Part shown: positions 7,032 through 31,440 of the stretch, piece by piece | Position numbering within the stretch: the stretch's first letter is position 1 | Layout of the letters: the number at the start of each line of letters is the position of its first letter | Assembly (NCBI GenBank): GCA_031274765.1 | Contig: JAISPR010000032.1 | Location: 1-35,503 of the forward strand | Direction: 5' to 3' | DNA: 35,503 nt | Origin: Nitrososphaerota archaeon | GTDB lineage: Archaea > Thermoproteota > Bathyarchaeia > Bathyarchaeales > Bathycorpusculaceae | Made by a program: the position numbers and the translations under genes | Notes under the pieces: generated by a model | The model's database searches: none | The model's input: only the letters and a program-made list of their open reading frames with translations | What the model was told of the DNA's origin: nothing

Positions 7032-7147
7032 GGGGGAGACTGTCTAAAAACTAGAATTTTTTGTGTTTTTGATGGAAATGGTCGGAGAAAAACCGTTCTT
7101 TTGTTATTTTTCAAGGGTTTTTGTTAGTTTTCGGACAGTCTGGGGGG
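7032..7147 (+). repeat. Family-1 element (AGACTGTC ends), copy A
   Basis: A 116-bp unit. AGACTGTCTAAAAAC (7037-7051) and GTTTTCGGACAGTCT (7127-7141) pair with one mismatch and one G-T pair. Both ends are flanked by runs of G (GGGGG left, GGGGGG right) in direct orientation. A second inner stem (AATGGT / ACCGTT) lies in the middle. It is 60 to 90 percent identical by eye to copies B, C and D. Confidence 0.85.
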
Positions 7148-7208
7148 TTTTGGGTGTGTTGGTTTGGGTTTGTTTGCTGTCAGGTAGTTGTAGTTGGTAG
7201 TTGTGGAT

Positions 7209-7323
7209 GGGGGAGACTGTCTAAAAACTAGAATTTTTTGTGTTTTTGGTGTAAACGAACGGAGAAAAACCGTTCTTTTCTTGTTTTCTGGGATTTTTGC
7301 TATTTTTCGGATAGTCTGGGGGG
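7209..7323 (+). repeat. Family-1 element, copy B
   Basis: A 115-bp unit, the same as copy A in its first 36 bases (GGGGGAGACTGTCTAAAAAC and onward). The inner stem is perfect here: GAACGG (7257-7262) and CCGTTC (7270-7275) around AGAAAAA. The outer stem is kept with a G-T pair (right end GATAGTCT). Confidence 0.85.
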
Positions 7324-7489
7324 TTTGTGGAAAATTAAATGGTGGTGATTTGTTGTATATTGTTGAGTTGGGAGTTATTTGTAGGTTGTTTCATTTTATA
7401 AATTCCGTGAATTGGGGGGTAGTGTGTTATTGGTGGTTTTATTATTTATAGTGTGTTGTGGTTTGTCAATATGTTATGGGACAAGGAGG

Positions 7490-8971
7490 TTATTTAGTTA
7501 AGTTTTTGAGGTATTTTAATATGAGTTGGGGTTGGTCAAAAGCGGTTTCCAGAGCTTTTCTTGGATTTTTGATATGGTTTAGAAGGGAGAGTTTTTTATA
7601 TCGGGCCAGCGCCTCAGCTGCTATCATTTTAACGTCCACAGGAGTAAATTCGGGAGTGGTAATAAGGGGCATCCCACTGGGTTGACGGGCCTGTGCATAG
7701 GCATCCCAGGACAAAGCGGCATTAATATAACCCTTAGCTTGACAGTCCTCATAGAGACGAGTCCCAAAAGAGGGGGTTGCTATAAACAAATGCATCCCAA
7801 CATCATATTTCTGTTTTAATTCAAGTGCAAAATCAACCGTGCGTTGCATATTTGCCTTTGTTTCTCCGGGAAACCCAATAATGTAGAAAGCCCCGGTTTT
7901 CAATCCGATTGCTTTAGCATTTTTGGCAAATTCAATCACCCGATTAAGATCAAGACTTTTACAAATCACATTATCAAGAATTTTCTGATCCCCTGATTCC
8001 ACCCCAACAAAAATGCTCTTAGCCCCTGAGCGCTTCATCTTTTTGAGCAGGGCCAAGTTGAGACAATCCGCTCGAACCCCATTTGGAGTTTCCCAGCCTA
8101 TGGGAATTTTTCGCTCAATTAAACCCTCACAAATAGCTTCAAAGCGTTTGAGATCAAAGGTAAGGTTGTCGTCTTCAAAAAAAATGTTTTTCACACCATA
8201 CTTGTCCACAACATATTGTATGTGAGTTAAAACATAATCTGTGGAATGCGCCCGAAAACTCTTTCCCATATGGAGATGGACCGCACAAAAACAACAGTTA
8301 AACATACACCCCCGACTAGTCACCATGGATATGGCTCGATTTTGAAAACTTCGATACCCAATGAGGTGGGGGTTTAGATACTGTTCCATATCAACTAAAT
8401 CATAGGCCGGATAGGGCAGCTCATCAAGATTAGCTATAAAAGGACGCAACGGAGTCACAATAACATTGTCATTTTGGCGGTAAGCAATCCCTTTGATTTC
8501 GCCAAACGATTTTTTATGCTCATAGCAGTGAACAATTTCGCGCATCGCAGACTCGCCTTCTCCACAAACAACTATGTCAACAGTTAGGGTTTCTTTGAGA
8601 AATTCTTTGGGCACCAAAGATACATGAGGCCCCCCGACAACTGTCAAGATGGTCGGATCAGCTTCTTTGACGACCTGGCTGGTTTTGATGGCATTACCTA
8701 TCTGACTAGTGAATGGTCCAGCGATGCCAACAATATCGGGTTTGCGTGTTTGGATTTCTTTTCTGATTTGTGTAAATGATAAGCCAACAGTAGCTGTTTC
8801 ACCGGTATGTTTAAAGGCCTCGCCCATAAAAAAGGCATCCAAGATCTCCACTTGATAACCAGCTTTTTGAAGTACTGAGGCTATATACATCAAGCCTATG
8901 GGTAAATTACCTGCCGGTAGCTCTGAACCCGGATAAAAGGTCTGGGGAGGATTAATCAGGAGAATTTTCAT
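7490..8971 (-). CDS. B12-binding-domain radical SAM protein
   Basis: A 493-residue enzyme of the cobalamin-binding radical SAM superfamily. Residues 1-145 look like a B12-binding Rossmann domain (MKILLINPP, GLMYIASVLQKAGYQVEILD, VVGGPHVS, IVVCGEGE). The radical SAM core carries C222-x3-C226-x2-C229 (CMFNCCFC) for the 4Fe-4S cluster, then FFEDDNLTFD and the GVESGDQKILDNV motif typical of BchE/Elp3-type members, and FYIIGFPGET near residue 365. Substrate cannot be told from sequence; related archaeal proteins include methylases and cyclases. It is a lone gene, transcribed leftward, divergent from the KGG cluster. The ATG at 8971 fits the usual MKILLINPP start. Confidence 0.88.
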   Translation of the reverse strand: MKILLINPPQTFYPGSELPAGNLPIGLMYIASVLQKAGYQVEILDAFFMGEAFKHTGETATVGLSFTQIRKEIQTRKPDIVGIAGPFTSQIGNAIKTSQVVKEADPTILTVVGGPHVSLVPKEFLKETLTVDIVVCGEGESAMREIVHCYEHKKSFGEIKGIAYRQNDNVIVTPLRPFIANLDELPYPAYDLVDMEQYLNPHLIGYRSFQNRAISMVTSRGCMFNCCFCAVHLHMGKSFRAHSTDYVLTHIQYVVDKYGVKNIFFEDDNLTFDLKRFEAICEGLIERKIPIGWETPNGVRADCLNLALLKKMKRSGAKSIFVGVESGDQKILDNVICKSLDLNRVIEFAKNAKAIGLKTGAFYIIGFPGETKANMQRTVDFALELKQKYDVGMHLFIATPSFGTRLYEDCQAKGYINAALSWDAYAQARQPSGMPLITTPEFTPVDVKMIAAEALARYKKLSLLNHIKNPRKALETAFDQPQLILKYLKNLTK

Positions 8972-9107
8972 CGTATGCCCATGTCTATAGTTACCCGCCC
9001 AAATATAAGTTAACTCATATTGCGTCCTTTTCAGACAAGACAGATTAGCCGTTTTTTGTGTAAAATAGTTTCGTTAAGTCGCAGTATGTTATTGCCAGGC
9101 GACAACA

Positions 9108-9174
9108 ACATATATTTATGAGCGGTTATTCGGCTCTATTCTTGTTTACTTTTCCGTAGTATATTAGGAGGTGA
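9108..9174 (+). promoter_or_regulatory. Promoter and Shine-Dalgarno of the KGG-protein cluster
   Basis: ACATATATTTATG at 9108-9120 is a TATA-like box; start of transcription would fall near 9140. The leader ends with AGGAGGTGA (9166-9174), a full match to the archaeal anti-Shine-Dalgarno, four bases before a TTG start codon. Confidence 0.5.
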
Positions 9175-9178
9175 ATTT

Positions 9179-9499
9179 TTGAGTACACGAACTGAAGAAA
9201 CAAAAAAAGGTAAAATGACTGTGGCAGAAGCCGGCAGGAAAGGCGGACAAAAAACAGCTTCAACTCATGGACGAGAATTCTACGAGGAAATCGGACGCAA
9301 AGGCGGAGAAAAAGTTTCAGCTGAACGAGGACCCGAATTCTACAGTGAAATCGGCAGTAAAGGCGGATCTGAGCGAGCTAAACAGCATGAAGGCACAAAA
9401 GAGGCAGAAGGCAAAACCAGTCTCGAAGAAGCAGGGCACCGCGGCGGACAACGAGTTAGGCGCCTAATTCAAGCCGGAAAGGAACATGAAACGCGATGA
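9179..9499 (+). CDS. KGG-repeat (GsiB-like) stress protein 1
   Basis: A 106-residue, very hydrophilic, Gly/Lys/Glu-rich protein made of about four KGG units of the form EAGRKGGQKTASTHGREFYEEIGRKGG. This is the repeat of bacterial general-stress protein GsiB and of the PF10685 'KGG' family, thought to act as hydrophilin or LEA-like protectants under desiccation, heat or acid. The start is TTG at 9179, fixed by AGGAGGTGA four bases upstream. No hydrophobic core, signal or membrane segment. It is the first and longest of six paralogs read in the same direction. Confidence 0.85.
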   Translation: MSTRTEETKKGKMTVAEAGRKGGQKTASTHGREFYEEIGRKGGEKVSAERGPEFYSEIGSKGGSERAKQHEGTKEAEGKTSLEEAGHRGGQRVRRLIQAGKEHETR

Positions 9500-9560
9500 T
9501 CAGAGTCGTAACATTTGTTCCTCTACCTTAACTTTTAATCTTTGAGATGGAGGTGAATTT

Positions 9561-9749
9561 TTGGACGAAAAAAAAGGAAGAATGACTGTAGAAGAGGCGG
9601 GTCGTAGAGGTGGATTAAAAACAGCTTCGACCCATGGAGAAGAATTTTACAGTGAAATTGGACGCAAAGGCGGAAAAATTGGAGGACCAAAAGGAGGACA
9701 GCGTGTCCGCAAACTCATCCAAGAAGGAAAAAAACATGAACCACGATAG
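9561..9749 (+). CDS. KGG-repeat (GsiB-like) protein 2
   Basis: A 62-residue protein: a charged start (MDEKKGRMTVEEAGRRGG), one full THGEEFYSEIGRKGG unit and a basic tail QRVRKLIQEGKKHEPR. TTG start at 9561 with GGAGGTGA at 9549-9556, four bases upstream as in its paralogs. The 61-base gap to gene 1 suggests co-transcription. Confidence 0.82.
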   Translation: MDEKKGRMTVEEAGRRGGLKTASTHGEEFYSEIGRKGGKIGGPKGGQRVRKLIQEGKKHEPR

Positions 9750-9915
9750 TTTTCAAGGTTTAGTTTGTTTTTATTTTTGTCTATCGTAAACATTTGAATC
9801 TAATAGTTACTGTTGCTGTACATGAATAGCCACATACGTTTAAGAATAATGTTTGAAGCTATACAACTGGAAAAAGAGCAAAGCGACGGTCTAACTTTTT
9901 TTGGAGGTGAAATGA

Positions 9916-10167
9916 TTGAACGATGACAAAAGGCGAGGTAAGATGACTGTGGCAGAAGCAGGCCGCCTTGGAGGAGAAAAAACCGCTACAACTCATGGAC
10001 CCGAATTCTACAGTGAAATCGGCAGTAAGGGAGGTAACAGGAGAGCACTCCAACATGAAGGCACTCGTGCAGCTGAGGGCAAAACTAGCCTTGAGGAAGC
10101 AGGGCACCGCGGCGGACAACGAGTTAAGAGACTGATTCAAGAAGGCAAGCACTATGAGGACGAATAA
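9916..10167 (+). CDS. KGG-repeat (GsiB-like) protein 3
   Basis: An 83-residue protein with two KGG units, an insert with RALQHEGTRAAEGKTSLEEA, and the basic tail QRVKRLIQEGKHYEDE. The start is TTG at 9916, after GGAGGTGA (9903-9910); the nearby ATG at 9912 is out of frame and stops after four codons. The 80 bases 9943-10022 are the same as 10463-10542 in protein 5, and the tail region matches gene 1, so the gene is a mosaic of its neighbours. The 166-base gap before it may contain a separate promoter (TTTAAGAATA near 9840). Confidence 0.82.
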   Translation: MNDDKRRGKMTVAEAGRLGGEKTATTHGPEFYSEIGSKGGNRRALQHEGTRAAEGKTSLEEAGHRGGQRVKRLIQEGKHYEDE

Positions 10168-10222
10168 CTGGGGCTCTTTTGAAAAATAGTCAACTGATAG
10201 AGTTTTAAGAGGAGGTGAGGTG

Positions 10223-10405
10223 TTGGTTGATTGTCAAAAGAAGGGGACGATGAGTGTTGAAGAAGCTGGGCGCTTAGGTGGACAAAAAGGCGGACGGAGG
10301 ACAGCAGAAACTCATGGTAGAGAATTCTATGAGACGATAGGACATAAAGGTGGGCAAAAAGTTCGAAGGCTTGTCCAGCAAGGAAAGACATACGAAGATA
10401 GATAA
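10223..10405 (+). CDS. KGG-repeat (GsiB-like) protein 4
   Basis: A 60-residue protein: MVDCQKKGTMSVEEAGRLGG, a duplicated KGG, a THGREFYETIGHKGG unit and the tail QKVRRLVQQGKTYEDR. I choose TTG at 10223 over the GTG at 10220 because it keeps the four-base spacing from GGAGGTGA (10211-10218) seen in the other paralogs. It carries a cysteine, unusual in this family. Confidence 0.8.
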   Translation: MVDCQKKGTMSVEEAGRLGGQKGGRRTAETHGREFYETIGHKGGQKVRRLVQQGKTYEDR

Positions 10406-10438
10406 TTTTTTTACAGGTTAATCATAGGAGGTGAATGT

Positions 10439-10600
10439 TTGTCTGATAAAAGAAAAGGTAAAATGACTGTGGCAGAAGCAGGCCGCCTTGGAGGAGAAAA
10501 AACCGCTACAACTCATGGACCCGAATTCTACAGTGAAATCGGGCATAAAGGAGGTCAAAAAGTAAAGAAGCTCATCGCAGAAGGCAAACAATACGAATAA
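10439..10600 (+). CDS. KGG-repeat (GsiB-like) protein 5, 53 aa
   Basis: A small gene easily missed by length cut-offs: TTG at 10439, stop TAA at 10598-10600, with GGAGGTGA at 10427-10434 and the usual four-base spacer. The product begins MSDKRKGKMTVAEAGRLGG, has one THGPEFYSEIGHKGG unit and ends VKKLIAEGKQYE. Bases 10463-10542 are the same as 9943-10022 of gene 3. Confidence 0.8.
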   Translation: MSDKRKGKMTVAEAGRLGGEKTATTHGPEFYSEIGHKGGQKVKKLIAEGKQYE

Positions 10601-10661
10601 GAATAATCGATGAGTAGGTTCTTTTTTTATTTTTTAGCACTAAAATTTGGAGGTGGAAGCA

Positions 10662-10943
10662 ATGAGTGGACAAATCATAGATACCCGCCGTAAAGGAATT
10701 GGTCAAGGTCGAGGTTCAAGGAAGCAGTATACAAACAGAGCCGGAAGATCAGGTCATGTCAGTCCAGCGATTGTTGTAAAATATCTCAAGGGTATGGGTT
10801 ATCCGGTAAATAAAAAGACCATGATAAGCAGTGCCCAAAGCAAAGATGCGACTGAGGATGTTATAGATTTGATCTCTAAACTGCCCGATAAAACATACAA
10901 TTCACCCATTGACATAACAAAAGAAATAGGTAAAATAGAATAG
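10662..10943 (+). CDS. DUF2795-domain protein
   Basis: A 93-residue basic protein. The N-terminal 30 residues are Gly/Arg-rich (RRKGIGQGRGSRKQYTNRAGR). The rest fits DUF2795: AIVVKYLKGMGYPVNKKTMI, a helical middle, then LISKLPDKTYNSPIDITKEI. DUF2795 proteins are small, of unknown function, and common in bacteria. Start is ATG at 10662 with GGAGGTG at 10649-10655; an in-frame TTG at 10647 would overlap the ribosome-binding site. It sits inside the KGG cluster (61 bases after protein 5), so it may share stress induction. Confidence 0.78.
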   Translation: MSGQIIDTRRKGIGQGRGSRKQYTNRAGRSGHVSPAIVVKYLKGMGYPVNKKTMISSAQSKDATEDVIDLISKLPDKTYNSPIDITKEIGKIE

Positions 10944-11030
10944 CATTGTCCGTTAGTTCAAATCAGCTTAAAATTTTACAGGGAAAATTTGTGTGAACCA
11001 ATGACACAAACATTAGAGAAACATCATGAG

Positions 11031-11076
11031 AACCCCTACGCGGATAATAGCACTATGATAGGGGTTTGTTATTTTA
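11031..11076 (+). terminator. Hairpin followed by T-rich tract
   Basis: AACCCCTA (11031-11038) and TAGGGGTT (11059-11066) form an 8-bp stem with a 20-base loop, followed by TGTTATTTT. It lies after the DUF2795 gene and before the last KGG gene, consistent with a transcript end. Confidence 0.45.
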
Positions 11077-11167
11077 GGCGTTAGGTTCTTGATGTTTGGT
11101 ATTTGTTTGCGGCTCTTTGGAGTCTACAGTTGAGTTGTTAGTAGAGAATTTTGTGGGAGGTGATTTT

Positions 11168-11383
11168 TTGGTAGATGAAAAGAAAAAAAAGATGACCCGG
11201 CAGGAAGCGGGTAAAAAAGGCGGTGAAAAGGTTGCTCGAGAAAGGGGAACCGAATTTTATCGCGAGATAGGCCGTATAGGTGGAGAAAAAGTGGCCGCCC
11301 AACGCGGGACAGAATATTATAAAAAAATTGGTAAAAAAGGCGGCGAGAAACGTAAAAAAAGTCTTGAAAAACGCAAAACATAA
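11168..11383 (+). CDS. KGG-repeat (GsiB-like) protein 6
   Basis: A 71-residue Lys/Arg-rich member with three regular units (EAGKKGGEKVARERGTEFYREIGRIGG and on), ending EKRKKSLEKRKT. It diverges more from the others and its repeats are closest to bacterial GsiB. TTG start at 11168 follows GGGAGGTGA (11155-11163) by four bases; a longer in-frame start at 11096 would ignore that site. It is separated from the rest by a hairpin and about 220 bases, so it probably has its own promoter. Confidence 0.82.
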   Translation: MVDEKKKKMTRQEAGKKGGEKVARERGTEFYREIGRIGGEKVAAQRGTEYYKKIGKKGGEKRKKSLEKRKT

Positions 11384-11881
11384 CCCATGTATTTAACAAC
11401 CCGAATTGTTGCCTGTCCCGAGATTGTGCGACATAGGTCAGGAGCATGTTTAGGTGGTGCTTTTATGTAAGTCAACAAAGTAGAGGTAATCATCAAAATT
11501 TAGTATTGTGATAAGAGTTGAAAACAAGGTCAGTAGTGGATCCTTTGTCAGTTGCACCGTTGTTGTTTGGTAGGTTTGTGAGTGCAACTCTATGTTAGAC
11601 AGTGTTTGTTTGGTAGTTCAGCTGGTTGGCGCACAGCAATAGTTTAAATGCAGTATTTATGTGGGCAGAACGGCTGTTTTGGGTTTTGTGTAAGAGAATT
11701 TATTTTGACATGTTTAGCGTATTGAAAATGTGTCTGTATTTTCGTGTCTTTAGTGGCATGAGGTCATTTTGTTCAATGGACCTTGTAGTGTATGTTATGT
11801 GTTGTGTTCATGTGACTAATGCAATCTTATTTTGTGTCATGTTCTATGAACAAGACAATGAGAATACAGAATAGAGAATGT
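11384..11881. other. Gene-free spacer
   Basis: About 500 bases, T/G-rich on the plus strand, without a credible gene. AGTTGCAC (11550-11557) and GTGCAACT (11582-11589) form an 8-bp stem with a 24-base loop. TAGTTCAGCTGGTTGGCGCA at 11613-11632 resembles a tRNA D-arm but no anticodon or T-arm follows. An 82-codon open frame at 11626-11874 is rich in C, F, M and V and looks spurious. Confidence 0.5.
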
Positions 11882-12511
11882 TTATTGTGTGTTAGCTGAA
11901 TTGGTTTTGCTTTTTGCTTTTATAATTTGTTTAACGTCTTTTTTATAGAATTCGACAATTTCAAATCCGTTGCCTGTTACCAGTCGTTTTAATTTTGTAT
12001 GGTTAAATATTTTATTATCTCCGGCCTCTACTATGGGAGAAACGATCCAATCGATTAATTGTCGCAATCCCCACGGATACCAGGGTTCACCTATGATTAA
12101 AATGCCGTCTTGTTTTAACACCCGTCGGGCTTCTTTTACAAAGTTATCGGCGTTATTTAAATGATGAAGAACGCAACAGATGATCAGCATATCAAAGCTG
12201 TGGTTGGCAAAGTTTAATTTTTCACCACTTGAGATTTCAAAAGTAATATTTGGGTAGCGTTGTTGGCATGTCGCAATCATGTTGGGTGATATGTCAATGC
12301 CATATGCTTGGATTTTAGCTCTGCGGCTGATTTCGTAAATGAGGCGGCCGTTTCCGCATCCTACGTCAAGAACCTTGTCACCCTCTGCTACGGTGCACAA
12401 TTTGAGTACTTCAGGTTTGAATTTTGCGGTAAATTTGCCCTCAGATGTTTGATCGTATGTGGCAGCAATTGTGTTGTATTTTTTGATGGAGTATTTTTCG
12501 TTTTTATTCAT
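11882..12511 (-). CDS. Class I SAM-dependent methyltransferase
   Basis: A 209-residue methyltransferase of the Methyltransf_11 type. Motif I VLDVGCGNGRLIYE binds SAM, followed by the acidic-loop region AYGIDISPNMI, motif II-like FANHSFDMLIICCVLHHL and post-motif RRVLKQDGILIIGEPW. Substrate unknown. The ATG at 12511 is chosen: AGGTCACC just upstream can act as ribosome-binding site and the N-terminus KYNTIAATYDQ is where the family starts; the longer frame to 12589 adds a non-conserved Cys/Gln-rich stretch. It is a single gene flanked by spacers. Confidence 0.85.
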   Translation of the reverse strand: MNKNEKYSIKKYNTIAATYDQTSEGKFTAKFKPEVLKLCTVAEGDKVLDVGCGNGRLIYEISRRAKIQAYGIDISPNMIATCQQRYPNITFEISSGEKLNFANHSFDMLIICCVLHHLNNADNFVKEARRVLKQDGILIIGEPWYPWGLRQLIDWIVSPIVEAGDNKIFNHTKLKRLVTGNGFEIVEFYKKDVKQIIKAKSKTNSANTQ

Positions 12512-13169: not shown

Positions 13170-13256
13170 GGAACTGTATAAAAATAACTTGTAATAATAG
13201 TCGGGAATTACATGTATTTTCAGCAAAAATAATTACACACTATTTTTGCACAGCCC
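13170..13256 (-). repeat. Family-5 element, short intact copy
   Basis: An 87-bp unit with inverted ends GGAACTGTATAAAAATA and the complement of GGGCTGTGCAAAAATA. Its body matches 2852-2925 in reverse orientation (TATTTTCAGCAAAAATAATT region, AATAATAGTCGGGAAT). It lacks the 159-bp block present in the other copy and so serves as the empty site. It ends one base before the stop codon of the leftward regulator gene. Confidence 0.75.
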
Positions 13257-16021: not shown

Positions 16022-17070
16022 TAAACAATTATGAGCGGTATTTTACCCGCCGGTTTTCTTATATGCCTTTCTGTTTAGGAACATTTTTGAAACCCCCCAC
16101 AAACACAGTTACCCACAGACAACACAAAATATGGGAACACAAAACAATTTCGCAAAAAACCAACATTAAACTTGGTAACATTAACTAAAAATAAAACCAA
16201 AATAAAACAAGACTATAGAACCAAAACACCCAAACTATTGTCCCTATCTGATTCTTCGACACAAACATGAATGGAATTAACCAGTCCTAAACAGTTGCTC
16301 TTACACTGCACGCAACACATCACAGCATCAATATAAATCCACGTGAATCAGTAAACATCCAACCAGATTATCATTGAGCATGCGGGCAAGTCCATTCAAG
16401 ATTAACCATTTACCCACTTGGAATCTCATGAACCCTATTACCTACTCACCAAGAACCCAAAGACTACACCAAATCTTTAGCTTACAAAAGACTTACTCAC
16501 ATTTGGCAGTTTGGAAAAAAATACTTTGAATTATTTATATTGCAGGTTGTTGCGAGTTTTTGGTTATTTTTACAATGTTGTCTTATTTTCCAAATATTTT
16601 TAGGGGACAATTTAATTTTGACTATTTTAGGTCAAACTACCAAAAGTTATTACTTTGTCAAACAAAAAATTATTCAACCCACCGCATACACAATCCCGCA
16701 AGCCCAAATATTTGCCTTACACAACAGCCAACAAAGAACACTTACGACACAACTTTTAGCGTAGCTACAAACACACCTCAGCATATTCATCATTTAAGTG
16801 CCTTACAAAAAACAGAAATAATCTCGCCACCACTCTATCGATTCTGCATATTACTTAGCACACTACATTAAACCTCCACAGATAAATACTGCCACACACC
16901 ACAGCCAACATTTACTCAAAAACTTCCCCACCAACCAGCCACCAAAAACCAACCACTAACAACCCAAACAACACACCAAAAAATACAACAACCCAAAAAA
17001 CTAAACCACCTCACCCGCACACAGATAAATTATAAGTACCCAACCAACACTAATATGTATAGACAACAAT
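16022..17070. other. Gene-free spacer upstream of metK and the DUF4443-like gene
   Basis: About 1 kb. It contains the metK promoter, a family-3 element (16499-16647), and from about 16870 to 17030 an A+C-rich, almost G-free plus strand. Two open frames over the family-3 element (16540-16871) are not protein-like. A TATA-like box (ATAAATTATAAG) at 17024-17035 precedes the gene at 17071. Confidence 0.55.
16499..16647 (+). repeat. Family-3 element, copy A
   Basis: About 149 bp with inverted ends ACATTTGGCAGTTT and the complement of ACTTTTGGTAGTTT. Its body (GAATTATTTATATTGCAGGT, TTTTTGGTTATTTTTACAAT, AAATATTTTTAGGGGACAAT) is shared with 21669-21821 and, reversed, 35233-35384. Confidence 0.8.
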
Positions 17071-17700
17071 ATGGCAACCACACTAAAACAATTCATGCAA
17101 CAAATAGCAGAGAAAAAAGCACCCGGACCCTCCACCTCCTTTACTGTTTTCCACCTCTACTACACCATAGAATTATTAGCTAAACACCCCCAAGGCAGAA
17201 ACAAACTAGCAGAAAAACTCCACGTCGGCGACGGCGCAGTCCGCACCATCATCAGCCGACTCCGAAACACAAACCTAATTGAAACCTCCAAAAACGGCGC
17301 AAACCTGACACCCAAAGGCAAAGAAATCTGGCAACAATTCGAAGACCTTTTCCCCAAACAAACAGACCTCCCCCAATCAGAACTAACCCCCGCAGAATTT
17401 AACCACACCTACCTAGTAAAAAACAAAGGAGAAAAAGTAAGCTCAGGCATCGACCAACGAGACGCAGCTATTATCGCAGGAGCCCGCCAAGCCCTTGTCA
17501 TCGTATATAGAGATAACCATCTCTTGATTAAATCCGTGAGCAACAACATAGAAACCCAATTCCCAAACGCCGCAAAACAACTCTTAGAACAATTAACCCC
17601 GCAAGACAACGATGTAATTATTGTTGCAGGTGCCGAGTCATCCCTAAAAGCTAAACGTGGCGCATTTGCTGCCGCTTGGTCACTTATCAGCAATGGTTAA
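17071..17700 (+). CDS. HTH protein with DUF4443-like C-terminus
   Basis: A 209-residue protein. Residues about 22-90 form a winged helix (FHLYYTIELLAKHPQGRNKLAEKL, DGAVRTIISRLRNTNLIETS, NLTPKGKEIW). The C-terminal part (GEKVSSGIDQRDAAIIAGARQALVIVY ... DVIIVAGA) resembles the archaeal DUF4443 that commonly follows such an HTH. Function unknown, probably regulatory. ATG at 17071; its stop codon overlaps by four bases (convergent) the stop of the GPN GTPase gene. Codon use is C-ending and A+C-rich, unlike the T/G-rich leftward genes. Confidence 0.72.
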   Translation: MATTLKQFMQQIAEKKAPGPSTSFTVFHLYYTIELLAKHPQGRNKLAEKLHVGDGAVRTIISRLRNTNLIETSKNGANLTPKGKEIWQQFEDLFPKQTDLPQSELTPAEFNHTYLVKNKGEKVSSGIDQRDAAIIAGARQALVIVYRDNHLLIKSVSNNIETQFPNAAKQLLEQLTPQDNDVIIVAGAESSLKAKRGAFAAAWSLISNG

Positions 17701-20303: not shown

Positions 20304-20547
20304 ATACAACCTGAATTCCCGAAAAATTTATACCTACAATATGTATTTGGTTTAAAATATCGTTAAAAAGTAATAAGGCGCTTAAAATGGCTAAAAATGC
20401 TGTGAGCAAACAATTTGTGTAGGTATAATTTTTATACCTGCAACGAATAATGTTTTTGCCCATTTTAAACATCTTTTTGCAATTTAACAGTATTTTAAGC
20501 CGAACGTAAACTACAGGTATAAAAAACTCGGGAATTTAGGATACAAC
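20304..20547. mobile_element. 230-bp palindromic element with 7-bp target duplication
   Basis: The element 20311-20540 is flanked by direct ATACAAC copies (20304-20310 and 20541-20547). Ends are inverted: CTGAATTCCCGAAAAATTTA at the left, and CCTAAATTCCCGAGTTTTTT on the minus strand at the right, both followed by TATACCT. The centre holds AGGTATAA / TTATACCT (20421-20439). The two arms, about 110 bases each, align along their whole length (e.g. GCCATTTTAAGC against GCCCATTTTAAAC on opposite strands), so the whole element is one imperfect palindrome. No coding capacity. Confidence 0.8.
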
Positions 20548-21617: not shown

Positions 21618-21668
21618 GTATTAAAAACTACGGAAACCCGCAATAAGTTAAAAATAAAAAGTACATAC

Positions 21669-21821
21669 TGACATTCGGCAGTTTGGGAAAAAAATACCTG
21701 AATTATTTATATTACAGGTTGTTGCGTGTTTTTGGTTATTTTTACAATATTTTTCTTATTTTTCAAATATTTTTTGAGCATGATTTAATTTTTGGCCGTG
21801 TTGTGTCAAATTGCCGAATGT
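21669..21821 (+). mobile_element. Family-3 element, copy B, with 10-bp target duplication
   Basis: 153 bp with inverted ends ACATTCGGCAGTTT (21671-21684) and the complement of ACATTCGGCAATTT (21808-21821). It is bracketed by direct AAGTACATAC copies at 21659-21668 and 21822-21831. The right flank ends one base before the stop codon of carS (21833-21835), so insertion was at the very end of that gene. No coding capacity. Confidence 0.85.
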
Positions 21822-21832
21822 AAGTACATACA

Positions 21833-23054: not shown

Positions 23055-23759
23055 GGAATCACTTAAGGAGTATTAGTTTAATGATAGAATATTGTGTTTG
23101 CACTTAAACTTTTTTTATGCACTACTGTTTGTGCTATCACCTGTATACCAATGTTTTGCTTGTTTCTATACGAGTGCATCTAATCACGGCACGCGGGTTA
23201 AAATGTAACATATGGAGCAGTAAACTGTTTATTGATTATTAAATAAGTCAATTTATACTGTTTTTACGAATAAAACAAACTGTAATGGAGTCAAAATAGA
23301 GCATTGGCTGGTGTAATGCCACATTATTTGTAGCCAAACAATTAAAGAGAAGAAAAGAGATTTCTGCTTTTTGAGACCCGATGCGATACATCCCGGATTT
23401 TCGATATACCCAACTATGTTTCATATGTCAATATGCATTCATTAAAAGATGGAAATTACAAAATTAATTATTGTAAATTTTATTAAATGTATTTTTAAAT
23501 GATTGATGATTAAACATACAGTTATGTGTCACACCACACAACTATAAAATTTCGTACTCGTTTTTTATGAATCAAAAACTAAATTTACTCGCATTTAAAA
23601 TAGAAAAAATAACATAAAATAACAACATATGTGCAAAATAATCTTGATTGCTAAGCCCAACACATAAGCACGTGTTTCGGGAATGCAGGATACATACACA
23701 CATAGCATGTTTCATCCCGTCAATCCACTCAACCCTCAATGTCATCAGGCCAAAAAAAC

Positions 23760-23786
23760 GGCCTTTCGCTATTTTAGGTTAGTACC
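23760..23786 (+). repeat. Family-2 element end
   Basis: GGCCTTTCGCTATTTTAGGT followed by TAGTACCC matches the outer end of copy b (24856-24881). The rest of the element is absent; a run of about twelve C residues follows. Confidence 0.5.
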
Positions 23787-23843
23787 CCCCCCCCCACAAC
23801 TTTACCCCAACCCCACAAAAACACAACCCACACAACACCCCCA

Positions 23844-23958
23844 CCCCCCAGACTATCCGAAAATTAACACAAATCCCAGAAAACAAGAAAAGAACTGTTT
23901 TTCTCCACCCGTTTCCGCCAAAAACACAAAAAGTTCTAGTTTTCAGACAGTCTCCCCC
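23844..23958 (-). repeat. Family-1 element, copy C
   Basis: A 115-bp reverse-orientation copy. Read on the minus strand it starts GGGGGAGACTGTCTGAAAAC and ends TTTTCGGATAGTCTGGGGGG. Compared with copies A and B, an outer-stem A-C mismatch is here a G-C pair, so the stem is improved. Confidence 0.85.
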
Positions 23959-24360
23959 ACAAAAAACCAAGGAACACAAAACTCAACCCGCACCCTAAAT
24001 CCACAATGACATAAATCACAAAAAAACAAAAAACAAACCCAACAACCCCACACCCACAAAACAACAAACAACACACACCCACAAACAACACACACACCAC
24101 CACACCAAACACCCCACAACACAAACACACCAACACCTAAAAACTCATCACCCCTAAACCCCCAAACAACAACTCAATCAACCCCACCACATCACCAAAC
24201 CCCCAAAAAACCACACTAAACAACCAATTACCAAAATAACCCAAAACACCACCCCATAACGATTAACAAACATATCAACAACCCTTACCACATACACATT
24301 TCCTGACCACCCACCAACCAAACAATCTATCAAACACACCCACAACATCACCTCTAACAA

Positions 24361-24830
24361 CTAACAAATTTCCTGCACCATAACCTCCATCCGATACACC
24401 CACCCCATCTTAAAATACACCCAATTCACACACATCACACATTCCAATTGTTTTTCAGTTAAAAACTCACAATTTTTCACCCAAATAGTACTCTTCACAA
24501 AAACATATCCAACCACAATATCTACCCACAGAACCTAATTAACTACATCATCAAAATACTTGATAACACAAAATTTATCGATAACAAAACTACTGCTTAC
24601 AAATTCATTAACTATACCACCTCCAAAAACTAAACTCATATCACTACAACATACGTAACATTTTCACCACACCCCCATACACCTCTAGATCTAGAACAAA
24701 TTCCCCAACTGTTTTCGCATCTTTTCCTAAAGCCACATACATATTTTTTCTTATCTATAGCTACAAGTTTGTGACGTAGCGTGGCCTTTTTGCTTGTTTC
24801 ATCAATACCCAAATTGGTCAAAGTGAAAAA
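24361..24830 (-). pseudogene. Decayed ISL3-family transposase
   Basis: Three frames together spell the DDE domain of an ISL3-type transposase. Segment 1 (about 24812-24740): LGIDETSKKATLRHKLVAID. Segment 2 (about 24727-24648), shifted: GKDAKTVGEFVLDLEVYGG. Segment 3 (24643-24361): DMSLVFGGGIVNEF, VIDKFHVIKYFDDVVN, a stop, then WVKNCEFLTEKQLE and onward to another stop. Family consensus blocks are LGIDE, GRDAKTV, DMSPAF, DKFHV and LKNPENLTEKQ. The N-terminal part is missing; a family-2 repeat lies just upstream. Frameshifts and stops show it is dead. Confidence 0.8.
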
Positions 24831-24855: not shown

Positions 24856-24989
24856 GGCCTTTCGCCATTTTAGGTAGGTGCACTCATTCTTTCTTCTTTA
24901 AACTTATGTTCTCCCTTAATGCTCCATACAACATTATACCGCAACAAAACTTATTGACCCCCCCCCCACCTAATTTAACGAATAACCGC
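24856..24989 (+). repeat. Family-2 short element, copy b
   Basis: The most complete copy: GGCCTTTCGCCATTTTAGGT, TAGGTGCACTCATTCTTTCT, the GTTCTCCCTTAATGCTCCAT block, CCGCAACAAAACTTATTGA, a run of C, then CACCTAATTTAACGAATAACC. It lies between the transposase pseudogene and a truncated ABC-ATPase fragment. Confidence 0.8.
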
Positions 24990-25145: not shown

Positions 25146-25327
25146 AATGTTTTACTACTCAACAGGTTCCCACTATAGTGTTTTTACAGCAAAATAACTC
25201 ACATGTAGTGTTTGTTTTTATTTCCCTTATTTTACAGTCATATTTTTGCAGAAACCCATTATGCATAGCGGTTTGCGAGTGAAAAATAACGCTACATACC
25301 CAGCTGAGTAGTAACGAAAAATCATAT

Positions 25328-25712: not shown

Positions 25713-26778
25713 AACGCTCATAGTAGACGGACCAGCGTCAGTTCAATTGCTTACTGGAAAAGCTGAAGTATTTGGAAGCCCCTTCAAAGAACTCCAGCGC
25801 GTCATCGTCAGAGAAGGTAAACGTACACCTTTTTTTGTTTCTGAAACCGCAGTTTTTGAAGTGGTATTAGGTGCAGGCGCGACCACAAAAGAGATAATGG
25901 GCAATACAGTACCAGAATCATGGAATAAACCAGTCCAGGTTATTTTGGGTCTAGAGAAAAAACCGGTTGTGATCTTGGTTTTAGGCGCAGTTGATACAGG
26001 GAAAAGTAGTTTTTGTACCTACATATTAAACAAAATGGTTGAAGCCAAACGCAGAGTCGCAGTTCTTGACGGTGACTTGGGGCAATCTGATATTGGTCCC
26101 TGTGCAAGCGTCGGCTATGCTGTAACGGCTAAACCCATTGGGGAACTCTATGATTTACGGTACCAAAATGGTTATTTCATCGGTGCCACCTCACCATCTG
26201 TTGCAGTTGCCAAAACACTTGAAGGTTTAAAAACCATGATGGAGGAAACCATCGAGCGACACACAGATGCTATATTAATCAACACCGACGGTTTTGTGGT
26301 AGGCAATGATGCTATCCGCTACAAACTAAATTTGGTTAGAGAACTAAAACCCGATATAGTTGTTGGGGTACAAATTCAAAATGAACTAGAGGAATTAATG
26401 TCTTATCTGGGCGGCGGCGGAGTATTAACTGTTGGAGCATCTGAAGCATTAAATGTACGGAGCCGCGAAAAACGCAAAATTTTACGTGAAATGAGCTACG
26501 CTAAATATCTGCGCAACTCCAAACTCCAATGTTATCCTCTAAGCCAACTCACAGTTGAACCAAGAAACGCAGTACCTAAAACCCAAAAACCTGAAAAAGG
26601 CGTGCTAGTGGGCTTATATGGCAGAGGCAATAGATTTTTAGGTATTGGAATTTTGCGCGCCATCAATCCCACTAGGCGCACTCTAAAGGTTCAAACTGCA
26701 GTCATCACAAAACCCCACCGTCTTATCATTGGAAAAGTTTTTTTGAACCATAAACTTCAAGAAACCCAACAAGACTAA
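25687..26778 (+). CDS. Clp1/Grc3-type polynucleotide 5'-hydroxyl kinase
   Basis: A 363-residue P-loop kinase of the COG1341 family, which phosphorylates 5'-OH ends of RNA (and DNA) and acts in RNA processing. An N-terminal beta-rich domain (residues 1-90), then Walker A GAVDTGKS (100-107), Walker B-region VLDGDLGQSDIGP (126-138), and a C-terminal domain with VGLYGRGNRFLGIGIL. Start is TTG at 25687; AGGAGACC lies eight bases upstream, while the ATG at 25683 is out of frame. Stop overlaps the convergent XPD gene's stop by four bases. Confidence 0.87.
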   Translation: MQQTIQPNKTLIVDGPASVQLLTGKAEVFGSPFKELQRVIVREGKRTPFFVSETAVFEVVLGAGATTKEIMGNTVPESWNKPVQVILGLEKKPVVILVLGAVDTGKSSFCTYILNKMVEAKRRVAVLDGDLGQSDIGPCASVGYAVTAKPIGELYDLRYQNGYFIGATSPSVAVAKTLEGLKTMMEETIERHTDAILINTDGFVVGNDAIRYKLNLVRELKPDIVVGVQIQNELEELMSYLGGGGVLTVGASEALNVRSREKRKILREMSYAKYLRNSKLQCYPLSQLTVEPRNAVPKTQKPEKGVLVGLYGRGNRFLGIGILRAINPTRRTLKVQTAVITKPHRLIIGKVFLNHKLQETQQD

Positions 26779-28697
26779 CTACTAAAAAAGGTTCTAACTT
26801 CATCAGCTAACACACCTTGCTTATCAGGCAAACTTTTCATACCATTTGTTATCCAACTAGGTATGAAACTCTTGCAGTACGCAGAATCAAAACGGTAATC
26901 TAGAAAAACTATAGCACCTTTATCATCTAGTGTGCGGATAGGACGCCCTGCAGCCTGTGTGGCTTTTTTCATAGCCGGTAAGATGTAACCGTATTCCCGG
27001 CCTCTGCCTGGAAAACGGGTTTCATAATAGTCAATTTGGGCTCTAACTCGAGGTGTCGGCTCTGCGTATGGCACGCCCACAACAAGCACCGAATTCATTT
27101 GGTTCCCAGGAAAATCTACACCTTCCGAAGTTCGCCCCCCCTGTACGCCAAGAAAAACTGCCCCACCTTTATCCCCGCATGCCTTGAAATCCTGCACCAA
27201 TTTTTCGTTAGCTTTAGAAGTCATACCACTTTGCTCATAGAACAATGGTTTGAGTAGCTGCTGTTCTAGGCCCTCTGAGAGTAGCGCGTTTAGAACTTGG
27301 AAGCTAGCGGCAAAAATTCCTGTGTTGGTGGGAGTGCTGTTAACGACTGCGTTTATGCAGCTAATCAGGGTCTGATACATTTTTGGGGTACGTTTTTCCA
27401 TTGAAGTGGTAACGCCAAGACAAACTGCAGAGAAAACGTGTTCTTTTGGGAACGGGGAGGGAGCAATAAACTGGACGGTGTTTTGAGGCATTTTAGTTAT
27501 GCGTGCATAGGCTTCCAAGGGCTGGAGAGTACCAGACATGACCACATTAGCATAGGTGGCAGAAAATACGGGTTCGGTTATTTTTGAGGGATCTAATGCG
27601 ACAATCTCGAGTTTAGCAGTTTTGTTACCTTCCTTTGTGAAGTACCGACTTGCTACGTTGATGTAGGAGCTGTCTTCGATTGTTTCGATCCACTTTTGTA
27701 GGTATTCACCCATAGAATTAACATAGGAACGAGGGTTCTTGCCCTCAGCGAGCATTGCTTTTCTTATTGCTAACCCGGCTTCGTGGATGTGTTCAAAGAA
27801 GTCTTTTGGTTTTTGAATACCGCTTTTTTCAATTATGTTTTTTATGTGACTTGTTTGGATGATTTCTTCCTTGTGGATTTTGTCGGTTAGGGTTTCTATT
27901 TCGTTACGGAAATAATGGATGAATTGTTCGATATCGCGATAATTGTATTTTTCTGCTTCTATCTCTGCAGTTTTCATGACAAATGAGGTTAATTGACTGC
28001 TTGAGATGTCTATGGCGGTTTCGGGGAGGTTATGTGCTTCATCCACAACTAGGATAATTTTAGAAAGTTCAGTTTCTAGGTTTTTGAGAAATGCTGTTCG
28101 AATCATAGGATCAAACACATAGAGGTAACTCAGTGCAATGACCTGTGCCTCAGTGATTGCTCCTTTCACCAGTTCGTAGGCGCAGAGTTGCTTTTTTTTG
28201 CAGGACCGCAGAATTTCAGACCCCATATAGGGACGCCTAGCAACCTCTTGTTGCATCTGGGTGTATTCCCAGGAACGGTTCTGTACATTGGTATAATATG
28301 GACATCGGCCTTTGGCTTTGAGCATTTCGCAAACTTCCATAAGGGAGCGAGAGTCAGAGGAACCTTTGGAGGCAAATACATTGAGGCACATTTCGTTACG
28401 GCCTCGAATAGATATTCCCGTGATAGGATGCTGTTTATAAATGGCACGTAGTTCTTCGATAACGCGGTCATGTTGGCGGTGGGTTCTGGCGACATAGAGG
28501 ATTTTGAGGTTTTTTTTCATTGCCACAGGGAGCACTGCAGAGAGTGCTGAGATTGTTTTGCCCAGGCCATTGCTGCCCTCGATGAGTACACTTTGGTGGT
28601 TGTTGACGGCTTTGTTAACAGTAGTTATGAATTCGTCTTGATGTGGACGAGGGCGGCCATAGGGAAAGTATTCTTGAACTTCTGGGGGTAGTTGCAT
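26775..28697 (-). CDS. xpd: XPD/Rad3-family 5'-3' DNA helicase
   Basis: A 640-residue superfamily 2 helicase. Walker A GSNGLGKT (41-48), DEAH box VVDEAH (217-222), and the iron-sulphur domain cysteines C104, C123, C132 and C172 between motifs I and II, as in archaeal XPD. C-terminal motifs include GVQGGRTSEGVDFPG (motif V region) and QAAGRPIRT (motif VI, Q-x-x-GR-x-x-R). Length is normal for archaeal XPD. Its role is DNA unwinding in repair. The start ATG overlaps the stop of the upstream endonuclease-III-like gene in a TAATG arrangement, so translation is probably coupled. Confidence 0.93.
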   Translation of the reverse strand: MQLPPEVQEYFPYGRPRPHQDEFITTVNKAVNNHQSVLIEGSNGLGKTISALSAVLPVAMKKNLKILYVARTHRQHDRVIEELRAIYKQHPITGISIRGRNEMCLNVFASKGSSDSRSLMEVCEMLKAKGRCPYYTNVQNRSWEYTQMQQEVARRPYMGSEILRSCKKKQLCAYELVKGAITEAQVIALSYLYVFDPMIRTAFLKNLETELSKIILVVDEAHNLPETAIDISSSQLTSFVMKTAEIEAEKYNYRDIEQFIHYFRNEIETLTDKIHKEEIIQTSHIKNIIEKSGIQKPKDFFEHIHEAGLAIRKAMLAEGKNPRSYVNSMGEYLQKWIETIEDSSYINVASRYFTKEGNKTAKLEIVALDPSKITEPVFSATYANVVMSGTLQPLEAYARITKMPQNTVQFIAPSPFPKEHVFSAVCLGVTTSMEKRTPKMYQTLISCINAVVNSTPTNTGIFAASFQVLNALLSEGLEQQLLKPLFYEQSGMTSKANEKLVQDFKACGDKGGAVFLGVQGGRTSEGVDFPGNQMNSVLVVGVPYAEPTPRVRAQIDYYETRFPGRGREYGYILPAMKKATQAAGRPIRTLDDKGAIVFLDYRFDSAYCKSFIPSWITNGMKSLPDKQGVLADEVRTFFSS

Positions 28698-29314
28698 TAG
28701 TTTATTCTCCAGTTTGATGCGTAATAAGTGTTAAGATATTTTGTGCAAAGTGGATTATGGGTTTTACAGGTTTTTTGGCTATGTGCAATCAAGCGCAGGT
28801 TCACCAATGAATAATTTTGGGGTTTAATAAACGACTGGAGGCTTTGAGGGGTTGTTTTATAGCCATCATTTGTGACTGTTATTTTCAACTGTTCTGAGAC
28901 CGGTTTAATGTGCTTGCTCACAGGTGTTGGAGGTTTGTTGGCAAAAAACAATAACGCCCCATCGGTTGCTTTTGGACCTACCCTTATCGATATAAGCGCT
29001 TGTCTTACTGCCGCTTGGGGTGAAAAGAGGATAGGTGGGGTACGGTCTAACTGGGTAAGAATTGTTTTGAGGGCTGTATAGATAGTTTTTGGTTTAGTTT
29101 GGTAGAGTTTGGCGATTTGTATACATTCACTTATCGCAGTAATTTTTGTGGTTGCAAGGATTTTGGGGGTTATTGGAAATTTGTCGAAGGGTCTTTTGAA
29201 GGCGTGTTGGGTATTGGTAGCAGGGGTGGTTTGCGAAATAATTGGGGTGACCAGGGTTTGATGTGGATTGGTGCTGTTTTTGACAGGTGGGATAGGTAAG
29301 GTATCTCTTAACAT
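28697..29314 (-). CDS. Divergent endonuclease III-like HhH protein
   Basis: A 205-residue relative of HhH-GPD DNA glycosylases. Conserved traits: HQTLVTPIISQTTPATNTQH (family: ATILSQNTTDKN), ITPKILATTKITAISECIQIAKLYQTK, the HhH-like VGPKATDGALLFF (112-124, Lys115 kept) and VSKHIKPVSEQL. The catalytic Asp of the usual PVDTHI is Ser133 here. Of the four iron-sulphur Cys only C183 and C190 remain; the third position is Tyr193 and the fourth is missing. The protein is unusually rich in Thr, Pro, Lys, Asn and Ile. It is coupled to XPD by TAATG. It may be a binding protein that lost glycosylase activity, or a gene beginning to decay. Confidence 0.65.
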   Translation of the reverse strand: MLRDTLPIPPVKNSTNPHQTLVTPIISQTTPATNTQHAFKRPFDKFPITPKILATTKITAISECIQIAKLYQTKPKTIYTALKTILTQLDRTPPILFSPQAAVRQALISIRVGPKATDGALLFFANKPPTPVSKHIKPVSEQLKITVTNDGYKTTPQSLQSFIKPQNYSLVNLRLIAHSQKTCKTHNPLCTKYLNTYYASNWRIN

Positions 29315-29465
29315 AGCTATAATTGTTATGGCATCTGTCTGTGTTAGCGTCTACTTCACCCTTTGCATAAAACAGTTGCAAATGTGTCTGCGAGCTTATA
29401 AATACCAATTGTGGAGATGTGATGTTTGGGCATCAAGAAACTGCTCTACCGCCATGAGAGCGAAA

Positions 29466-30473
29466 TTAGCGGGATAAGGCTATCCAGAGATGATCTGAGC
29501 TGGGGCAGGGCAGTTCCTTGGTTGAATCTTGGTTTTTTATGAGTAGCCGCTTATGGGGATTTAATAAAAATTCGCCGATGACATCGGCATAGATATGTTG
29601 AGCTGCGAGGGCTTGGATTATTTTTGATACATTTTGGGGTTCTGCGGCGATAAGCAGAGCACCAGAACTAATTAATTGTAGCGGATCGATTTCGTAGTAG
29701 CGACAAATTTTTGCGGTTTCAGGCTCTACAGTTATTTTTTCCTCAAAAATCCGTACACCTAAACCAGCTGCATCTGCCATTTCATGTACACCGTTTAGAA
29801 TACCGCCCTCTGTTGGATCATGCATCGCATGGACTCCGCCAGCATGATATGCTGTTAGAGCGTCTTTGACGATACTGATTTGATTATAAAAGGCGGCGGC
29901 GTCGTTGAGCATGGATTGGCTAAAAACGGTTTGGAGTTGTTGCTGGCGATCGGTAGCAAGAATTGCGGTGCCTTCGATCCCGGCGCTTTTAGTCATGATA
30001 AGCATGTCACCTGCTTTTGCCCCTGCGGCCGTCACATATTTTCCTTTTTCGGTTAGGCCTACAAGGCAACCAACTATGATAGGGTTTGTTATGCCAGGTG
30101 TAGTTTCGCAGTGACCGCCAACAATAGCTATGCCTAGGTCTTCTGCAGCACGATGCATTTGTTTGCTAATGGTTTCAACGATTTTACTATCGGTATTTTG
30201 GGGGAGCATAATACAGCTAAAGAAAAATGCAGGTTCGACACCAAAGGTTGCAACATCATTGGCATTGATGTTTATGGCCTCCCAGCCGATACGTTCTACT
30301 GCGCCTGTGATGGGATCCATAGATATTATGGCGTCTTTGGTGCCCATATCCAATACTGCGCCATCAACACCTGCAGTTGGGCCTAGTTTTATTTCGTTTC
30401 TTTTGGCGCCCAAGTTTTTGAAAACTATATTTTTTAAGATGTCGGGGGGGATTTTTCCGGGTTGGAGTTTCAT
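29466..30473 (-). CDS. AIR synthase-related (PurM/HypE-like) protein
   Basis: A 335-residue ATP-grasp-unrelated PurM-fold protein of the group containing AIR synthase, HypE, ThiL and SelD. Evidence: GPTAGVDGAVLD near residue 32-43, INANDVATFGVEPAFFF, IAIVGGHCETTPG, and AMHDPTEGGILNGVHEMA, the HypE-like ATP-binding blocks. It lacks the C-terminal PRIC Cys of true HypE (ends DHLWIALSR), so it is a HypE-like archaeal family of unknown substrate. It starts 13 bases after the ECF S-component gene and probably shares its transcript, hinting at cofactor or vitamin metabolism. Confidence 0.82.
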   Translation of the reverse strand: MKLQPGKIPPDILKNIVFKNLGAKRNEIKLGPTAGVDGAVLDMGTKDAIISMDPITGAVERIGWEAININANDVATFGVEPAFFFSCIMLPQNTDSKIVETISKQMHRAAEDLGIAIVGGHCETTPGITNPIIVGCLVGLTEKGKYVTAAGAKAGDMLIMTKSAGIEGTAILATDRQQQLQTVFSQSMLNDAAAFYNQISIVKDALTAYHAGGVHAMHDPTEGGILNGVHEMADAAGLGVRIFEEKITVEPETAKICRYYEIDPLQLISSGALLIAAEPQNVSKIIQALAAQHIYADVIGEFLLNPHKRLLIKNQDSTKELPCPSSDHLWIALSR

Positions 30474-30486
30474 AGGTATATCTTTG

Positions 30487-31035
30487 TCAAAGGTAGTTTT
30501 TAAACTGTGGGAAAAGCCGTTGTACTGTATGTGTGATTGGGATGGCTATTATTAGACCTATTACCATTTGGCCTATGTTTAGAGGTATTTCTAGGAGAGC
30601 ATAGATTTCTGATCCGGGGATTAGTATGGCGAGCAGAGTTTCGTAGATGAAATAGCCGATAACCATTATGGAACCGCCTATTGTTATTGAGATGGTGGCT
30701 CGCAGGGTTGTGTTTTGGATGCGTCCAAGTTTGATGTTGAGAAATCCAACTATTGCGCCTTGGGTGCCTTTTATTATCAATGTTCCGGGGGCAAAGTGTG
30801 TAAAGCCCAAGTAAACATCTGAAAGAGCTGCGCCGATGCCTCCGGCGAATGCGCCAACAAAAGGACCAAAGAGCAAAGCGGTGACGTAGATAGCTACTTC
30901 GCCTATATTGAAGTAGCCTGATGTTGCGGGGATGGGTATGGGTGGGATTTGTGAGATTATGATGAATATGAGTGTTGTGAAGAGGGCTGTTGTGGTAATT
31001 ATAGTAGTTGTTTTTGGGGTTGTTTTTGTATTCAT
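30487..31035 (-). CDS. ECF transporter S component (PF07155-like)
   Basis: A 182-residue membrane protein with about six hydrophobic helices. The motif FNIGEVAIYVTALLFGPFVG, then GGIGAALSDVYLG and APGTLIIKGTQGAIVGFL match the S (substrate-binding) subunit family PF07155 of energy-coupling-factor vitamin transporters. Which vitamin is bound cannot be told. No ECF A/T genes are present, as is usual for group II systems. The N-terminus is Thr/Lys-rich. A TATA-like box (minus strand, TTTTTATACAT near 31105-31117) precedes it; no riboswitch is recognisable in the 80-base leader. Confidence 0.85.
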   Translation of the reverse strand: MNTKTTPKTTTIITTTALFTTLIFIIISQIPPIPIPATSGYFNIGEVAIYVTALLFGPFVGAFAGGIGAALSDVYLGFTHFAPGTLIIKGTQGAIVGFLNIKLGRIQNTTLRATISITIGGSIMVIGYFIYETLLAILIPGSEIYALLEIPLNIGQMVIGLIIAIPITHTVQRLFPQFKNYL

Positions 31036-31284
31036 TTGTTTCTTTCTCGAAGGTTGGGGGGGTTATCAATATTTTGGTAGTTAGGCATCTACAATAAACA
31101 GTTTTGGATGTATAAAAACAACATAGTTTTATCAACATTGGAATTTTTTAGCCGTGTATTTTTTGTTGTGTGAAATGTTGTTGTGTAGTTGTAATTCAGT
31201 TGTGCAGTTGTTTGTTAGTTATGATATGCAGGGTTTTTATGTGTTGCAAGTTTGGGTATGATTTAGTTTAGGGGTTTTTGAGTT

Positions 31285-31390
31285 GGGAGACTGTTTGAAA
31301 ACTAGAATTTTTCGTGTTTTTGGAGGAAACGGGCGAAGAAAAGCGGTTTTTTCTTGTTTTCCGAGGTTTTTATTGTTTTTCGGACAGACT
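31285..31390 (+). repeat. Family-1 element, copy D (diverged)
   Basis: About 106 bp: GGGAGACTGTTTGAAAACTA at the left, TTTTTCGGACAGACT at the right, with a middle resembling the other copies (GAAACGGGCGAAGAAAAGCG). The outer stem is preserved through G-C and G-T pairs except one position. Confidence 0.75.
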
Positions 31391-31440
31391 GTTTGGGTTT
31401 GTTATATAGCGGTTTGGTGGGAGGGTTTTCGTTTGATTGG

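Follow-up and report, generated by a model that had tools for sequence, protein, structure and literature searches.

Among described elements, those closest to the family reported here are two miniature inverted-repeat transposable elements (MITEs) of the archaeon Methanosarcina acetivorans that have the IS1182 element ISMac2 as their partner: one is 160 bp long, with 14 copies, inverted repeats of 26 and direct repeats of 4, and the second is 169 bp long, with 7 copies, inverted repeats of 25 and direct repeats of 0 (PMC3852290). The IS1182 element ISPse1 is 1653 bp long, with inverted repeats of 16/16 and 4-bp direct repeats (PMC3281130). Some members of the IS1182 family are reported to target palindromes, and IS1272 is reported to replace its target stem-loop without making a duplication (PMC5678879); insertion in a single orientation has been described for the IS1202 family (ISAjo2 group), at pdif/dif sites in Acinetobacter (PMC10132070). 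Here we describe a family of short mobile elements, hereafter family 1, four copies of which (A to D) lie in a 35,503-nucleotide stretch of DNA that spans positions 1 to 35,503 of contig JAISPR010000032.1 (assembly GCA_031274765.1) and is referred to throughout as the window.

A first-pass annotation of the window left two readings of these copies, as a family of MITEs or as mobile structured RNA. The first reading is upheld by the inverted ends, the 4-bp target duplications, the absence of coding capacity, a copy number above 100, the nesting of one copy within another, and the presence of ends of the same type beside IS1182 transposases in sister genomes. Family 1 is very probably a set of MITEs of about 107 nt, with 18-nt imperfect terminal inverted repeats, that is propagated in trans by an IS1182-family DDE transposase or one closely related to that family. 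Family 1 resembles the ISMac2 MITEs in having an archaeal host, a short, non-coding body, inverted ends and a tie to IS1182, and its 4-bp duplication agrees with the length printed for the 160-bp MITE and for ISPse1; it differs from them, in a comparison of published descriptions, in its length, its more than 100 copies, its G-run targets and its single orientation. Elements of the genus that encode transposases matching the NF033551 model, 1629 and 1673 bp long and the longer of them with an exact 4-bp repeat, are like ISPse1. Unlike what is reported for IS1272, insertion of family 1 creates a 4-bp duplication, at G-runs that are not palindromic, and although it shares with the IS1202 family both terminal inverted repeats and one orientation at a specific target, that is a different family whose targets are pdif/dif sites. 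An IS1182 MITE with 4-bp repeats in an archaeon is already in print, and the unusual trait here is the oriented G-run target. A narrow literature search found no report combining a G-rich target, a common orientation and a target site duplication in a miniature inverted-repeat element, and the library searched contains none that mentions both Bathyarchaeota-type archaea and miniature inverted-repeat elements; the one paper there that names Bathycorpusculum makes no mention of transposition or repeats, and four papers mention Bathyarchaeota along with insertion sequences and transposases.

The window is contig C47 of an archaeal genome of 2.5 Mb in 170 contigs (G000), and its XPD-type helicase is 93% identical to one of Candidatus Bathycorpusculum termitum; the host is thus a Bathycorpusculum-group archaeon. 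Searching this genome for the left-end pattern, with up to three mismatches allowed, gives 90 matches, and a reversed control gives none; a 17-nt end motif has 347 matches versus 13 in the control, which would correspond to about 170 elements when diverged and sister copies are included. The family numbers more than 100 copies in the genome. From stretches around the end matches we gathered 136 nhmmer hits, which are a sample and not the whole genome; 16 partial hits were left out, and the remaining 120 full-length copies have a mean pairwise identity of 0.81, with flank statistics based on the 117 for which both flanks are present. The element measures 106-107 nt, is without coding capacity, and is mostly intergenic, with only five of the 120 copies falling inside a mechanically called open reading frame (ORF) of at least 120 aa. 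Its ends are imperfect inverted repeats of the AGACTGTC / AGACTGTCYRAAAACTAG type, with mismatches, and diverge less from the consensus (0.088 in the end columns) than does the interior (0.135). The four copies in the window are present at the positions first proposed for them, far above chance as judged by motif matches in the reversed control, and so are their inverted AGACTGTC repeats, although 18 positions align and not the 15 bp of the stem originally described.

Comparison of the two flanks of each copy reveals a short direct repeat. The bases at -4 to -1 match those at +2 to +5 with column z values of 5.0, 6.3, 2.1 and 7.0, the highest value in any other cell being 3.4, and the flanking 4-mers are identical in 71/117 copies, as against 37.8 ± 3.3 when flanks are shuffled (maximum 49 in 2000 shuffles). 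Copies without a GGGG left flank also show the excess, with an exact repeat in 19 of 54 versus 4.5 ± 1.8 (maximum 11 in 2000 shuffles), and there is no significant excess at the next base on either side (31 versus 31.2 ± 1.9, and 86 versus 84.6 ± 1.4). The flanking G-runs are 4-bp target duplications. Copy A (GAGACTGTC...GACAGTCTG) occupies positions 7036-7142 on the plus strand, with inverted ends at 7037-7054 and 7124-7141, and lies between GGGG repeats at 7032-7035 and 7143-7146; copy B, also on the plus strand and separated from A by 71 nt, occupies 7213-7318 between GGGG repeats at 7209-7212 and 7319-7322. Copy C is on the minus strand at 23849-23954, within a 2.2-kb intergenic tract, with its left repeat at 23955-23958 and its right repeat at 23845-23848 (GGGG on the minus strand in both cases). 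Copy D, on the plus strand at 31287-31391, has the lowest profile score of the four and an imperfect duplication, TTGG at 31283-31286 and TTTG at 31392-31395. The direct G-runs first noted at three copies are exact duplications at A, B and C. These copy coordinates include one closing G, placed between the element end and the right 4-bp repeat. An empty site is given by a nested copy on contig C81: once the inner element and one GGGG are excised, the outer copy is whole again and reaches 79.5 bits across model positions 1-105, whereas its unrepaired pieces score 41.3 and 22.2 bits. Empty sites for copies C and D were sought by blastn against loci L031-L036, in which genes aligned and none of the non-coding stretches did.

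With each element oriented by its interior, the reconstructed target reads G(G/T)GGG followed by T's, G being present at the five positions in 81, 70, 93, 90 and 75% of the copies. At least three G's are present in the left flank of 101/117 copies and in the right flank of 99/117, three C's are present in none, and in nine of the 117 neither flank reaches three G's. On the same strand the neighbouring DNA is rich in G and T, with a GC skew above 0.2 for 84 of the 120 copies and below -0.2 for two. Where a called gene is present on both sides (n=56), all four gene arrangements occur (21, 14, 11 and 10 copies), and the orientation is therefore not explained by selection relative to genes. Twelve pairs of full-length copies lie less than 200 nt apart and all twelve have the same direction; on contig C164 the neighbouring copies share one G-run. 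A G-quadruplex target was considered and set aside: such motifs overlap 14 of 116 reconstructed sites and 78 of 1444 control G-runs, a weak excess over the 7.8 ± 2.5 obtained with shuffled flanks, of which 6 of 200 reach the observed value. A DDE transposase acting on symmetrical ends is expected to insert both ways, and given the fixed orientation we infer an asymmetry in how the ends or the target are read. The odds seem to us evenly balanced that a MITE driven by an IS1182-type transposase has here exchanged palindromic targets for G-runs that are not palindromic, which it enters in a single orientation (101 G-rich against 0 C-rich among 117) despite its nearly symmetrical ends; the second G-run left by each insertion could then serve as the next target, so that copies pointing the same way would accumulate in GT-rich intergenic DNA. 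We note that the window contains intergenic tracts with extreme strand bias (GC skew to -0.92, with G and T on one strand) at 23751-24750, 6501-7500, 31001-31750 and 16501-17250, and that the gap between the genes flanking copy C is 2.2 kb here as compared with about 0.3 kb in four relatives (L031-L034).

The tie to IS1182 comes from related genomes. One of these (G025) carries a whole element of 1673 bp (L348) with ends AGACCGTGTGAAAATTAC and AGACTGTGTGAAAAGTC and flanks AAAC/AAAC; the AGACTGTGTGAAAAGTC end lies approximately 100 nt before a transposase gene, 482 aa of which fall within the locus (L323), and which matches the IS1182 model NF033551 above its cut-off (E 4.4e-105). A second (G038) has an element of 1629 bp (L349) with similar ends, flanks AATT/ATTT, and an IS1182 gene split into two ORFs. 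Among 28 matches to the IS1182 model in nine genomes, 17 loci were inspected, and in six of them (L369, L370, L371, L380, L384 and L391) an AGACTG-type end with no more than two mismatches lies 85-125 nt before the estimated start of the IS1182 gene. The distance is shortest, at 85 nt, in L384 of G022, where the end is AGACTGTCCGAAAACTAG, of the family-1 type, and the IS1182 gene that follows it is decayed (tblastn E 5e-15; NF033551 E 9.2e-5); in the other five loci, in G002, G022 and G029, the distance is 93-125 nt.

Ends of the AGACTG type also enclose other interiors in the relatives, defining sister families of 115-118 nt (G021, G039 and G029), about 155-158 nt (G022), 127-130 nt (G005, G026, G027 and G003) and 103 nt (G004). 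Several copies of the 127-130-nt families have 4-bp repeats as well, and several lie, as seen by eye, inside inverted repeats AACCC-N4-GGGTT of which the four bases are duplicated, which is what the palindrome targeting of IS1182 would predict. The G022 sister family follows a weaker G rule, with at least three G's in 13 of 22 left flanks and three C's in 3 of 22; a short motif served to orient its copies, and one of them gave a tie. The genome of the window contains a second family with ends of the AGACTGCGCAAAAA type (family 2), for which there are 27 and 26 matches against 0 in the control. The 13 copies inspected, a count that omits one artefact row, are 111-118 nt long, and eight have exact 4-bp repeats that are varied and AT-rich (AATC, ATTT twice, AACT, GATT, AATT, AAAT and AACC). 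Examples are at C10:16826, C14:8073, C91:24296 and C140:16106, with others in L329 and L343, and three contigs (C40, C55 and C145) begin at a family-2 copy, suggesting that near-identical copies of this family break the assembly.

If family 1 moves in this manner, the transposase would bind AGACTGTC-type ends and the element would be joined to a staggered cut 4 nt wide, so that 4 bp are duplicated. The chosen site would be a short G-run (consensus G-G/T-G-G-G, then T's) in GT-rich intergenic DNA, with the fixed orientation relative to that run implying some asymmetry in the reading of either the two ends or the target strand. Both the identity of the mover as an IS1182 transposase and the way in which orientation is set are inferred, and the IS1182 assignment is likely, not proven. 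Several observations weigh against it. Eleven of the 17 inspected IS1182 loci have no AGACTG-type end so placed, several of these being without an N-terminus or at a contig edge, and we found no autonomous element that combines exactly the family-1 ends with an intact transposase. In the genome of the window there are three stretches matching the IS1182 model, none over the cut-off and none bracketed by family-1 ends; as no intact IS1182 gene was found in the assembly, the source element may have been lost, may be unassembled, or may lie in the missing ~4% of the genome. One of the three, a decayed gene on contig C91 with weak IS1182 and DDE_Tnp_1 matches, has the right 41 nt of family 1 on its C-terminal side, the reverse of the L384 arrangement, and it has no tblastn match to the L348 transposase; its motif looks IS5-like to us, and the partner transposase could be an IS5-like relative. 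An exact repeat is absent from 46/117 family-1 copies and present in only 2 of the 22 copies of the G022 sister family, and the family-1 target flanks are not palindromic (complementarity 2.29/12, as compared with 2.39 ± 0.11 when shuffled).

The foremost alternative is that family 1 is a MITE moved by some other DDE family, IS5-like or ISH3-like, whose ends look similar, a reading that we regard as improbable while giving it some weight. The possibly IS5-like gene on C91 does adjoin a family-1 right end, and in the genus there is an ISH3-like element (L310) whose ends start with CAGTAG and whose flanks are TTAT/TTAT; however, the C91 layout is reversed relative to L384, and the ISH3-like ends CAGTAGTTCC (L311) and CAGTAGATCA (L310) differ from AGACTGTC. 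Among 32 genomes, eight contain matches to the ISH3 model, 12 in total and all below the cut-off, and the L311 ends likewise begin CAGTAG. Of the 16 PF01609 matches in the genome of the window, 12 loci were fetched; all were scanned for AGACTG ends and 11 also for inverted repeats of whatever sequence. No AGACTG end pair brackets any of these loci; one of the PF01609 loci (L162) has other ends, ACCTGAATTCCCG..., and encodes a 547-aa open frame matching DDE_Tnp_1. We note that repeats in the window at 3001-3028 and 20305-20433 resemble the ends ACCTGAATTCCCGAAAAA of this same insertion sequence, which is located elsewhere in the genome.

Other candidate partners were also set aside. In G010 the start of a transposase adjoins an end, but it belongs to a copy inserted into a MITE, the parts of the query to ~43 and from 45 matching separate sets of places; this copy is presumably IS630-like, as named from its sequence and a DDE_3 search. 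For a long multicopy element at assembly breaks at these ends (G010, G021 and G029) nothing that continues beyond the breaks was found, and they would be explained equally by near-identical MITE copies. End pairs spaced by 300-5000 nt whose repeats match (24 rows, of which some are for overlapping loci) look like neighbouring MITEs or chance.

A second alternative, that of a mobile structured RNA, supposes that a transcript, folded via its outer stem and inner hairpin, spreads by the copying of RNA, with target-primed reverse transcription into G-runs as one possible route. Such copying would yield one fixed orientation and a short target duplication, as seen, and the family-1 consensus alone folds well, at -31.8 kcal/mol, though with inverted ends it must, a stem being present because the ends are inverted repeats. 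We therefore shuffled right halves among copies, since a selected stem should fit its own left half best. In the outer stem 1970/2160 cells pair, compared with 1971.9 ± 4.2 when shuffled, and the observed value is reached by 715/1000 shuffles (346/500 in a smaller run); in the inner hairpin 519/720 pair, compared with 516.8 ± 3.8, and 318/1000 shuffles reach that number. RNAalifold gives -0.84 kcal/mol for 120 copies, and Rfam has no match in the window at gathering scores. The lack of an excess is a fairly safe negative, because common descent of the copies would, if anything, tend to raise these scores. The first-pass annotation had seen compensating substitutions in both stems, citing an A-C pair in copies A and B that is G-C in C and D. 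The quoted pairs are correct for the four copies, but at this pair of positions (11 x 97) the larger set contains A-C 46, A-U 40, G-C 13 and G-U 18, a random association (Fisher p = 0.30), and over 120 copies the substitutions ignore pairing in the outer stem and inner hairpin alike. What looks like compensation in four copies can thus vanish in 120. There is no sequence support for a structured RNA, and with DDE transposases adjoining sister families that have similar ends, we consider this explanation very unlikely. Least credible of all is a single-strand HUH/Y1 element of the IS200/IS605 or REP/REPIN type, which would account for one-orientation insertion beside a short target sequence, but such elements are not known to make a target duplication, and family 1 has both a significant 4-bp duplication and terminal inverted repeats at its ends.

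Several other repeats in the window touch on the family-1 elements or lie among its genes. A repeat family TAGGTGGGT...CACCC is present at 1-98 and 24871-24965, and related copies interrupt family-1 MITEs on contigs C70, C17 and C90; on C70, as seen by eye, AGTTATT stands at either side of the insert, and the TAGGTGGGT family looks mobile, with duplications of about 7 bp. A third dispersed family, ACATTCGGCAGTTTGG..., is found at 16483-16579, 21655-21826 and 35228-35373, and on C100 and C91 there are family-1 copies that sequence related to it interrupts or adjoins (by eye). Elsewhere in the genome, a family-1 copy on contig C167 (L104) has a mid-element insert of ~60 nt that contains ATCGGGACAATGCCC twice. 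Among the genes, four 112-nt repeats spaced by 361-520 nt at 9179-10555, with the first ORF (9179-9499) matching the KGG stress motif PF10685, suggest a small cluster of stress-protein-like genes, and a 566-aa ORF on the minus strand at 706-2406 has a List_Bact_rpt match and contains a 197-nt direct repeat, 74% identical, at 1077-1474.

Finally, the analysis settles family 1 as mobile DNA, as far as sequence can do so. If the orientation lock is confirmed, family 1 together with its palindrome-associated sister families would constitute a natural set for examining how a DDE transposase with near-symmetrical ends chooses its strand and its site.

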